Source: Pseudomonadota bacterium (GTDB lineage: Bacteria; Pseudomonadota; Gammaproteobacteria; Burkholderiales; JAJZQI01). From it: DNA of 64,000 nt. The notes under the pieces are model-generated. The model was not told where the DNA came from. It did not search any database and saw only the letters and a list, made by a program, of their open reading frames with translations. Below, in pieces: positions 1 through 11,397 of the stretch; within the stretch, counting starts at the first letter, position 1; each line of letters starts with the position of its first letter. A program made the translations under genes and the position numbers. Location of the stretch: the NCBI GenBank assembly GCA_021851875.1, contig JAJZQI010000006.1:1-64000 (forward strand), in the 5' to 3' direction.

Positions 1-143
1 AGGACTGCGATCAACAATCTTGTAACGCGCCATGCCTTCGCCTCTCCCGTCGTCTTGCTTCTTCGTTCGACCTTGCCGAAGAAAAACGTTCAGCGCAGAA
101 TGGGGTTTTTATACAGCCTGGTTAGAGAACTACAAGGACCGTC

Positions 144-965
144 ATGACCATTGTTGAGCAAACATTCATTATTCACTTGGACTACGGAAATCGCGCTGAT
201 GAACGAAAGTTTGTCGCCGATGTACTTGACACTTTCGACAAAGACACGCTGTGTGGTGCAAATCTATTCATTAACAATGACCCATACGGCCTTGAGCTTC
301 TCCTATCTCTAAATTTTGAGAAGGATGGCGATAAGTTTGAGTCGTGGTTAAGAAACAACTACCCAGCCAAGAAGCGGGAATATCGTCTCTTGTTTGAGGA
401 CATCACCACCGCCATCAGTCGAAAGGGCTACAGCGTCTGTGGTTTGCTAGATAGCGACATGCTTTCATTTGCTATGCCATCCGAGGCTAACGGACTCTTT
501 CTCTTCCCAGACCGAAAGATAATTTCCTCGATTTGGGGGCGTGCTACCGCAAGTTCATCGTTCTCAGTTTTTCTATCCCACTCCAGCCGAGATAAGCCAC
601 TTGTAGATGCCGTATTCAATGAGCTTCACAAGCGAGATGTGCGCGCTTGGTATGACCGCTACGAGATTGAGCCTGGTGACAGCATTACCGACAAAATCAA
701 CGAGGGGCTTGCCAACAGCAAGTTGGGGCTACTGTTCTTCTCGAAGAACTTTTTAGATCCACGCTCTGGCTGGCCGACTAAGGAGGCCAATTACTTCTTC
801 CAAAAGCTGATGCGAGACGGGAAGAAGAATTTCATTGTTCTTAATATCGACCTGTCCGTTGATGAGCTTCCACCGCTGCTTCAAGACTTCCGGTTTATTG
901 ACATGCGTTCGCCGTCTGCCATCACTGAGGTTGTCGACTTTGTTAAGAAGCAGGCCGTTCTCTAA
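144..965 (+). CDS. TIR-domain protein with an uncharacterised N-terminal domain (integron cassette 1 ORF)
   Basis: C-terminal half FSVFLSHSSRDKPLVDAVFNELHKRDVRAWYDRYEIEPGDSITDKINEGLANSKLGLLFFSKNFLDPRSGWPTKEANYF is typical of TIR domains; followed immediately by an attC site. Confidence 0.85.
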   Translation: MTIVEQTFIIHLDYGNRADERKFVADVLDTFDKDTLCGANLFINNDPYGLELLLSLNFEKDGDKFESWLRNNYPAKKREYRLLFEDITTAISRKGYSVCGLLDSDMLSFAMPSEANGLFLFPDRKIISSIWGRATASSSFSVFLSHSSRDKPLVDAVFNELHKRDVRAWYDRYEIEPGDSITDKINEGLANSKLGLLFFSKNFLDPRSGWPTKEANYFFQKLMRDGKKNFIVLNIDLSVDELPPLLQDFRFIDMRSPSAITEVVDFVKKQAVL

Positions 966-1027
966 CCCTGCGCTCAACCGGACGCTGCGCGATAAAGCCG
1001 CGCAGCGCCGGTGACCTTCACGTTATA
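960..1027 (+). repeat. integron attC recombination site 1
   Basis: CTCTAAC...CTCAACCGGACGCTGCGCG-ATAAAGC-CGCGCAGCGCCGGTGACCTTCACGTTATAC: TAAC/GTTATAC core sites, perfect inverted CGCTGCGCG/CGCGCAGCG stem and the asymmetric extra base (CCGG-A-CGC) typical of attC. Confidence 0.88.
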
Positions 1028-1046
1028 CATCCAGGTCTCGGACGTC

Positions 1047-1523
1047 ATGAACAGAAACCAAGTTCTAGCAGCTCTTGAGCACACTCAATGGGCCTATGCA
1101 CTAAATGATCAATCGCATGCCTTGCAGGAGCTTGCACAACGCATAGCCAGAACGGGACGGCTAAACAGATCACTTATTTCATACTCAAATCTTGTGGCAG
1201 GTGTTCGGTTCCAGTTCCCAAATGTCAACAATGGCGAGCCCTTCGAGATAGATACACATAATTGGCATGGCCTCCATAGGCGAATTATTGGTGATCTATT
1301 GGGCTACCTATCGTACCTGTCGTATCGAGATTACGACTTCATGGCTAGCGCTCTAGTCGCAGGCCTGGTTGAAAACAGGCCGAGCGAAATCTTCTTTGAA
1401 TGGATGCAGTCGCTTGGAGCGCTCCCTAACCTTTCAGAAGATGCAATTACAGAGTTTTGGGTCAGTGAAGTGAATAAAGCAGTCAATTGGTACCGACAAA
1501 ACCCGCAGGGGTTCCATGTATAA
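1047..1523 (+). CDS. hypothetical protein (integron cassette 2 ORF); ATG at 1047 preferred over the ORF-track GTG at 1011, which lies inside attC1
   Basis: ORF bounded by attC1 and attC2; its stop codon lies in the R'' core site of attC2; no family recognised. Confidence 0.75.
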   Translation: MNRNQVLAALEHTQWAYALNDQSHALQELAQRIARTGRLNRSLISYSNLVAGVRFQFPNVNNGEPFEIDTHNWHGLHRRIIGDLLGYLSYLSYRDYDFMASALVAGLVENRPSEIFFEWMQSLGALPNLSEDAITEFWVSEVNKAVNWYRQNPQGFHV

Positions 1524-1598
1524 CACTTCGGTCAACAGGGACGCCCAAACAGCCGGCTTCGCCGCCTATTTGGGCGCCCGTTACCTTCGACGTTATGC
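1518..1598 (+). repeat. integron attC recombination site 2
   Basis: GTATAAC (1518-1524) ... GTCAACAGGGACGCCCAAA...TTTGGGCGCCCGTTACCTTCGAC-GTTATGC (1592-1598); complementary core sites and inverted stem. Confidence 0.88.
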
Positions 1599-1613
1599 AT
1601 TCAGCCCATCGCC

Positions 1614-2111
1614 GTGACTTACGCCTACCGAAAAGCAGAAGAATCAGATAGAGAAGCGATCTATCAACTGTATCGCTTGGTAATGCGTGGCTTCATTTCG
1701 GACATCTGGGGCTGGGATGAGCGGTGGCAACGAGCCGACTTTTCTACACACTTTAATCCTCGTTGCGTTACGCTCGCATCCCAAGAGGACCAACTGGCTG
1801 GCTATTCCCACGTCGAAAATCGAGGCAGCCAATTATTCATACGAATGATCGTTGTTCATCCACATCACCAGCAAAAAGGCATCGGGAAAAAATTGCTTGA
1901 GTCTGTTATCACATCGGCTGGCGAGCAATCCATGAACATCGGATTGGAGGTCTTCAAGATCAATGATGTGGCAAGAGCATTCTATGAAAGACATGGCTTT
2001 AACACAGATCGCACAGATCGGGGTCAGGCCTTACATTTTACATCCCCACCAAGCCACAGTCCCATCTTACACCATGCCCAACCCACCATTCCTGGGGGCG
2101 CTGCGCGATAA
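1614..2111 (+). CDS. GNAT-family N-acetyltransferase (integron cassette 3 ORF), C-terminus probably altered
   Basis: LFIRMIVVHPHHQQKGIGKKLLESVI...NDVARAFYERHGF acetyl-CoA-binding pattern; ORF runs into the attC3 stem. Confidence 0.75.
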   Translation: MTYAYRKAEESDREAIYQLYRLVMRGFISDIWGWDERWQRADFSTHFNPRCVTLASQEDQLAGYSHVENRGSQLFIRMIVVHPHHQQKGIGKKLLESVITSAGEQSMNIGLEVFKINDVARAFYERHGFNTDRTDRGQALHFTSPPSHSPILHHAQPTIPGGAAR

Positions 2112-2154
2112 AGACACGCAACGCCCCCAGGTTCAGGCGCTGGACGTCTTGGGT
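2076..2154 (+). repeat. degenerate integron attC site 3
   Basis: GCCCAAC (matches RYYYAAC) ... GGGGGCG-CTGCGCGATAAAGACACGCAA-CGCCCCC...GGACGT-CTTGGGT; right core has C instead of the G of GTTRRRY. Confidence 0.65.
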
Positions 2155-2408
2155 CAGTAGTGGAAACGGAGTTGAACGATTTCGAGCGAGCTATCCACAA
2201 CGCGATACACCATGCGATGTTCATCTGTAATCCGCCGAGACCAAAATCCGGATAGCGCGTGCTTCAATGGCTCCGGCTTGCCTACGCCGGCAAATGGTTC
2301 GCGCTCCGTTTCCCGAATCAGCTTGTTGATTCGTTCCACCATGCGCCTGTCTTGCTTCTGCCAGTACAGGTAGTCTTCCCATGCCTCGTCAGAAAAGATC
2401 AGCTTCAC
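2154..2408 (-). CDS. yoeB: YoeB-family mRNA interferase toxin
   Basis: MKLIFSDEAWEDYLYWQKQDRRMVERINKLI...PEPLKHALSGFWSRRITDEHRMVYRV...LRFHY is typical YoeB; 4-nt overlap with antitoxin. Confidence 0.93.
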   Translation of the reverse strand: MKLIFSDEAWEDYLYWQKQDRRMVERINKLIRETEREPFAGVGKPEPLKHALSGFWSRRITDEHRMVYRVVDSSLEIVQLRFHY

Positions 2409-2656
2409 TCGACCAGCTTCCGCTCCACACCTTTCTCAGCGTTCAACTGAGAAATCGCCGAGAGCAGGCGCTTGGCGTTCGCGGGCGTGCGCAGAAGGTA
2501 GGCCGTTTCTTCAAGCGCTTTGAAATCTTCCAGTGAAAGCATCACAACGGACTGTTCACCGTTGCGGGTAATTATCAGCGCCTCGTGGTCATTGCACACC
2601 CGATCCATGGTGCTTGCCAAGTTTGCGCGAGCGGTGGTGTAGGTAATCGCATCCAT
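2405..2656 (-). CDS. yefM: YefM/Phd-family antitoxin
   Basis: MDAITYTTARANLASTMDRVCNDHEALIITRNGEQSVVMLSLEDFKALEETAYLL. Confidence 0.93.
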   Translation of the reverse strand: MDAITYTTARANLASTMDRVCNDHEALIITRNGEQSVVMLSLEDFKALEETAYLLRTPANAKRLLSAISQLNAEKGVERKLVE

Positions 2657-9331: not shown

Positions 9332-9396
9332 TCCAGAAGCCTGAATACTCTAAGGTCAACTTGCAATTATTCCATAAATCCAGTACTTTGACACAC

Positions 9397-11397
<2,001 letters not shown>

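Follow-up and report, generated by a model that had tools for sequence, protein, structure and literature searches.

A probable distal integron array with an IS1182-family insertion sequence at the attC core on its left edge

Integrons are a bacterial gene-collecting system. In the literature, the users of their attC sites are IS1111-type insertion sequences (IS) and group IIC introns. The transposase of IS1111 elements is of the DEDD type, with a non-coding RNA as guide (PMC11187229). Within the IS1182 family, IS1272 is reported to target inverted-repeat structures and to replace the target hairpin without duplication (PMC5678879). Searches of open-licence papers returned no account of attC targeting by IS1182/DDE elements, which is not proof of novelty. 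As for the cargo, published work already describes phage-defence cassettes in integrons (both Kieffer 2025 and a study on V. parahaemolyticus, as cited in PMC12444791).

Here, we analysed a stretch of 64,000 nucleotides (the window), which starts at the first base of contig C10. We consider it highly probable that positions 121-2154 are a distal integron array of three cassettes and, jointly, that positions 1-120 are the end of an IS1182-family IS that targets attC cores. Of the two, the IS deserves more attention. The array is of an ordinary kind and, taken alone, adds a further environmental integron that carries a defence-type cassette.

attC sites, cassettes and the right neighbour

At the level of site detection, we used a covariance model (R1) trained on nine attC of this genome, all of them outside the window and none IS-interrupted. 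An earlier reading made from the letters alone (the sequence-only reading) had placed three attC sites in the window. All of them are present, and R1 finds exactly these three at E<=10 in the 64 kb on both strands (Table 1). On eight control stretches (67 kb; relatives and one plasmid region), the model gave zero matches at E<=1. Regarding the limits of the sites, 1518-1598 had been exact, 960-1027 had to be extended by one base to 960-1028, and 2076-2154 was kept, with the model match covering only 2076-2145. The three sites had also been described as different from each other, which is in line with their pairwise identity of 49-62%.

The R''/L''/L'/R' cores and the extrahelical base were found in attC1 and attC2 (R1), and attC3 was weak in this respect. 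Two of the three sites score far above noise, so it is not the case that all of them fall below threshold. Support for attC3 comes from its position and its palindrome. Its right core is degenerate (CTTGGGT in place of GTTRRRY), which suggests a weak and probably poorly active site. An Rfam scan returned nothing at the three attC positions; to our knowledge, Rfam holds no attC family. The sole match of that scan was a TPP riboswitch aptamer at window positions 9396-9496 (+), with 65.1 bits.

In integron arrays, the following cassette supplies the right core of each attC; complementarity is hence expected between the 5' border of a cassette and the left core of the attC that belongs to it. For cassette 1, GTTAGAGAA (121-129) is the exact complement of TTCTCTAAC (958-966; 9/9), and for cassette 2, GTTATAC (1022-1028) is complementary to GTATAAC (1518-1524; 7/7). 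For cassette 3, which carries the GNAT gene, outer-core complementarity is 5/7. Therefore, this complementarity between borders and cores delimits the three cassettes as given in Table 1. There is one small co-directional ORF per attC, with G/TT borders, which is the layout of gene cassettes. Both the complementary borders and the ORF positions thus bear out the canonical arrangement read earlier, of an ORF and then an attC in the same direction. The stop codons of the TIR ORF and of the cassette-2 ORF lie inside the left core of their own attC, as is common in cassettes.

Table 1. Features at the left end of the window, with strand and supporting evidence
Feature	Position	Strand	Evidence
5' end of IS1182-family IS	1..120	-	Terminal CTGTATAAAAACCCC common to 7 other junctions
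attC ahead of the TIR cassette: right core (GTTAGAG), cut from the attC body by the IS	121..127	+	GTTAGAGAA/TTCTCTAAC complementarity
Gene cassette 1 (TIR protein)	122..1022	+	G/TT crossover points of flanking cores
TIR-domain protein, 273 aa	144..965	+	Pfam TIR_2 2.5e-21
attC1, cassette 1	960..1028	+	R1 29.7 bits, E=8.6e-5
Gene cassette 2 (uncharacterised protein)	1023..1592	+	GTTATAC/GTATAAC complementarity
Cassette-2 protein, 158 aa	1047..1523	+	No Pfam match
attC2, cassette 2	1518..1598	+	R1 53.2 bits, E=2.1e-10
Gene cassette 3 (GNAT)	1593..2148	+	Between GTTATGC (1592-1598) and degenerate CTTGGGT (2148-2154)
GNAT acetyltransferase	1614..2111	+	Acetyltransf_1 2.8e-16
attC3, terminal, right core CTTGGGT at 2148-2154	2076..2154	+	R1 17.3 bits, E=0.076 for 2076-2145
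YoeB-YefM toxin-antitoxin pair	2154..2656	-	YoeB_toxin 3.6e-40, PhdYeFM 1.1e-24

Pfam agreed with the ORF identities proposed from the letters (TIR, no family, and GNAT). In the first protein, the TIR domain is C-terminal (at about residues 135-256), and the N-terminal region has no assigned family. The protein aligns with PdTIR (PDB 3h16) and AbTIR (PDB 8g83) and keeps the glutamate of WPxKE. Its best PADLOC match is the candidate family PDC-S66 (5.5e-22, for the TIR part only). Its likeliest role would be that of an NADase acting in phage defence via NAD+ cleavage. An AlphaFold model made without alignment reached a pLDDT of 44 and was set aside. No relatives of the protein were found in 368 other genomes of the class (1e-15) or in plasmids.

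The cassette-2 protein has one homologue, encoded on a plasmid of Acaryochloris (46% identity, 94% coverage), and R1 detects no attC around it. The GNAT is an ordinary one, and the final ~30 residues of its ORF run through a dispersed repeat and then into the attC loop. This repeat, GGGGTCAGGCCTTACATTTTACA at 2020-2042, has nine copies in the genome, and one pair of them is inverted (C50:62667-62730). The YoeB-YefM pair directly borders the array on the opposite strand, and R1 finds no attC beyond it in the window.

In seven relatives with the neighbouring (orthologous) epimerase, the flanking DNA contains neither the cassette genes nor attC. Thus, the cassette genes are not fixed genes, and the synteny in close relatives that the sequence-only reading had named as the counter-evidence is missing beside the epimerase. 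It is very improbable, in our view, that REP elements or terminators make up the attC-like palindromes and that the ORFs are ordinary chromosomal genes. It is true that all three sites are GC-rich inverted repeats located 3' of genes, and that the third has no proper right core. However, the R1 scores and the complementary cassette borders argue against this explanation, together with the presence of an integrase and arrays elsewhere in the genome and the lack of the cassette genes in relatives.

The integrase and the placement of the array

The array had been read from left to right, with intI expected leftward, beyond the contig end at which the window begins, and the genome indeed has an intact IntI with an array. 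It is the sole integron integrase of the genome (C38:236849-237826), full-length, with 484 bits against TIGR02249 (cut-off 265). Downstream of it, three cassettes with three attC reach the contig end. Integrase and adjacent array therefore exist in this genome, but on a contig other than that of the window. In total, R1 finds ~33 attC in the genome, on ten contigs (C38, C10, C13, C24, C26, C40, C27, C48, C21, and C15). We also considered a tyrosine recombinase on C19 as partner and rejected it, as it is a phage-type integrase and not IntI.

Contigs C38, C26, and C40 all terminate in the matching (3') IS end, and C10 and C24 begin with the opposite (5') end. A single IS copy bridging C38 and C10 is possible and unprovable, with the 3' end on three contigs and the 5' end on two. 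In one complete relative, the neighbours of the two flanks are separated by 565 kb, and in another by 51 kb. Conserved adjacency of these neighbours was not found in the order, and in a same-genus genome neither of them is present at 1e-40. With the matching IS end on three contigs and no synteny of the neighbours, C38 is one of three possible partners of C10.

For this reason, we weigh evenly the alternative that the C10 cassettes are a CALIN –a cassette cluster without an integrase of its own– at a separate chromosomal site, with the integrase acting in trans and the IS joining C10 to C26 or C40, and not to C38. This alternative differs from a distal array in the location of the array only, not in its nature. 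It agrees with the distribution of the IS ends among the five contigs, with the distances between flank neighbours in the two complete relatives, and with the other cassette clusters that have no intI on their own contigs (C13, C24, and C48 with C27). However, no particular join is favoured by direct evidence, and C38, with the matching IS end at its own terminus after an attC body, would serve just as well as partner.

Other attC-bearing contigs display different arrangements. C48 and C27, with 126 identical overlapping bases, make up a single array that has about 14 attC, and intI is on neither contig; the array stretches are C48:12343-15542 (L130) and C27:1-5620 (L129). On C24 (L025:180-790), the cassette right after the IS end carries a toxin-antitoxin-like pair, which by eye is a RelE/HigB-like gene followed by an HTH gene. 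C26, C40, C21, and C15 (L026, L027, L131, and L132) present lone attC or single cassettes beside core genes, which might be insertions at secondary (attG-like) sites.

The insertion sequence and its probable target

The IS end at window positions 1-120 sits exactly in the attC preceding the TIR cassette and was absent from the first account of this DNA. It terminates in GGGGTTTTTATACAGCCTG, with the tip CCTG at 117-120, and is followed by GTTAGAG. The transposase starts at ~33 (MARYKIVDRSP) and runs left off the contig. A full-length copy of 1627 bp is present at C11:1065-2691, where the transposase is split by an apparent frameshift. Its domains are DUF772 (PF05598), DDE_Tnp_1 (PF01609), and DDE_Tnp_1_6 (PF13751), with no other domain matches. 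A DDE transposase with DUF772 places the element in the IS1182 family, and its closest relatives among annotated plasmid sequences bear the name IS1182-like. The possibility of the IS being a cassette in its own right was rejected, given that the full C11 copy has no attC at its 3' end.

In this genome, 8/8 IS junctions fall on an attC-type GTT core, always at the same base position and with the same orientation. On the body side, all of them read GTT followed by CAAGCTGTATAAAAACCCC, downstream of a hairpin; on the opposite side, all read TACAGCCTG followed by GTTRRRY or close to it. With R1, four of the five hairpins on the body side obtain an attC score, and the fifth (C11) looks like an attC without a score.

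To look beyond this genome, we sampled 80 related loci from GTDB, with tips located by the inverted repeat alone; the R1 training set includes none of their sites. Counts over these loci are not independent because the loci hold related elements: GTT flanks both sides in 42 of the 46 elements with both tips located, and an R1 attC match abuts the IS tip in 26 of the 45 loci with sufficient flank. The tip starts with three purines in 56/58 cases on the body side and 43/56 on the other side. The consensus of the IS flanks is attC-type (AACGTT, then AGGC), and the body flanks are attC-like well past the GTT. Mean folding z was -1.5 adjoining the tip vs. -0.1 at 300 nt distance. Repeated insertion at one attC position in many genomes is thus observed, which is the behaviour expected of an attC-targeting IS.

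Among the hosts of these elements are Beta- and Gammaproteobacteria, Thermodesulfobacteriota, Nitrospirota, Verrucomicrobiota, and Gemmatimonadota, and MAGs are the only source for several of these hosts. ISPmo1, ISMno38, and ISPa22, from the wider IS1182 family, have different tips, with neither GTT nor attC context, and the tree splits the clade with full support from two of the three. Orientation relative to attC clusters on this tree (5 changes vs. 16 in shuffles), although it has switched a few times at the least. Altogether, the flanks point to an IS1182-family clade that appears to target attC cores specifically.

Since some related copies (for example, L066, L069, and several from Desulfospira) sit at GTT where no attC can be recognised, a looser GTT/hairpin motif may be the actual target. 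Desulfospira joergensenii harbors eight copies of a related IS (L086, L090, L094, L097-L099, L101, and L103), all GTT-flanked and several without recognisable attC, which could represent either a looser target or divergent attC sites. An unlikely explanation for the whole pattern is that the IS is found at attC only since arrays are permissive, non-essential DNA, insertion being random in arrays or driven by GTT alone. Arrays do tolerate insertions, and the copies at GTT without recognisable attC would fit. However, the single base position and orientation in 8/8 own junctions, the GTT at 42/46 elements elsewhere with body flanks attC-like far beyond it, and the lack of such a pattern in other IS1182 members argue against permissive DNA and for targeting of the attC core.

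The three cassettes (TIR, unknown, and GNAT) were presumably acquired through a tyrosine integron integrase like the one on C38, with past IntI activity at the attC sites of the window. The IS would have entered the attC before the TIR cassette at its GTT core, leaving a GTT on either side of itself, presumably through a 3-bp GTT target duplication. Its transposase may recognise the attC core either as sequence or as a folded hairpin. Such an insertion would disturb the attC and tie the IS to the downstream cassette. As body-side tips start with three purines, GTT plus tip resembles GTTRRR again; if the integrase accepts this junction, the IS would exit and enter along with the next cassette. 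The IS of the window, with CAAG, is a poorer fit to this restoring idea. Overall, a DDE clade of the IS1182 family that is spread over several phyla, is specialised on the attC core, and has a GAGG/GAAG tip restoring GTTRRR so that it rides the next cassette is a proposal with about equal chances of being right or wrong.

With an attC-targeting DDE transposase, the recognition of a DNA hairpin site would have been solved independently. Such an IS would also help to explain the breaking-up or freezing of integron arrays, and its tips together with GTT could be used as a marker for attC sites in unannotated genomes.

Comparison with known systems

Like sedentary chromosomal integrons and CALINs, this genome presents attC-bounded cassettes and one integron integrase, and the cassettes carry mostly unknown genes together with toxin-antitoxin and defence-type genes. 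Unlike them, it has fragments on about ten contigs, broken by IS inserted in attC, and C10 is not tied to intI.

Regarding mobile elements with attC as target, group IIC-attC introns share this feature; however, they are retroelements with a ribozyme and a reverse transcriptase, none of which is present here. The IS1111-attC group (ISKpn4, ISPst6, and ISPa21; IS110/IS1111 family) is alike in its fixed insertion place in attC. In contrast, the transposase of the present IS is of the DDE type (DUF772, DDE_Tnp_1, and DDE_Tnp_1_6), and the IS has terminal inverted repeats with GTT flanking each end. A DEDD transposase of the IS110/IS1111 type was not found in it, the only matches being DUF772 and DDE_Tnp_1/_6.

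Finally, the IS shares the transposase family and the terminal inverted repeats with the IS1182 family (ISPmo1, ISMno38, ISPa22, and IS1272), although its identity to plasmid members such as ISPmo1 is about 28% and the tips are different. Compared to IS1272, the present IS leaves the attC body in place and has GTT at both ends.
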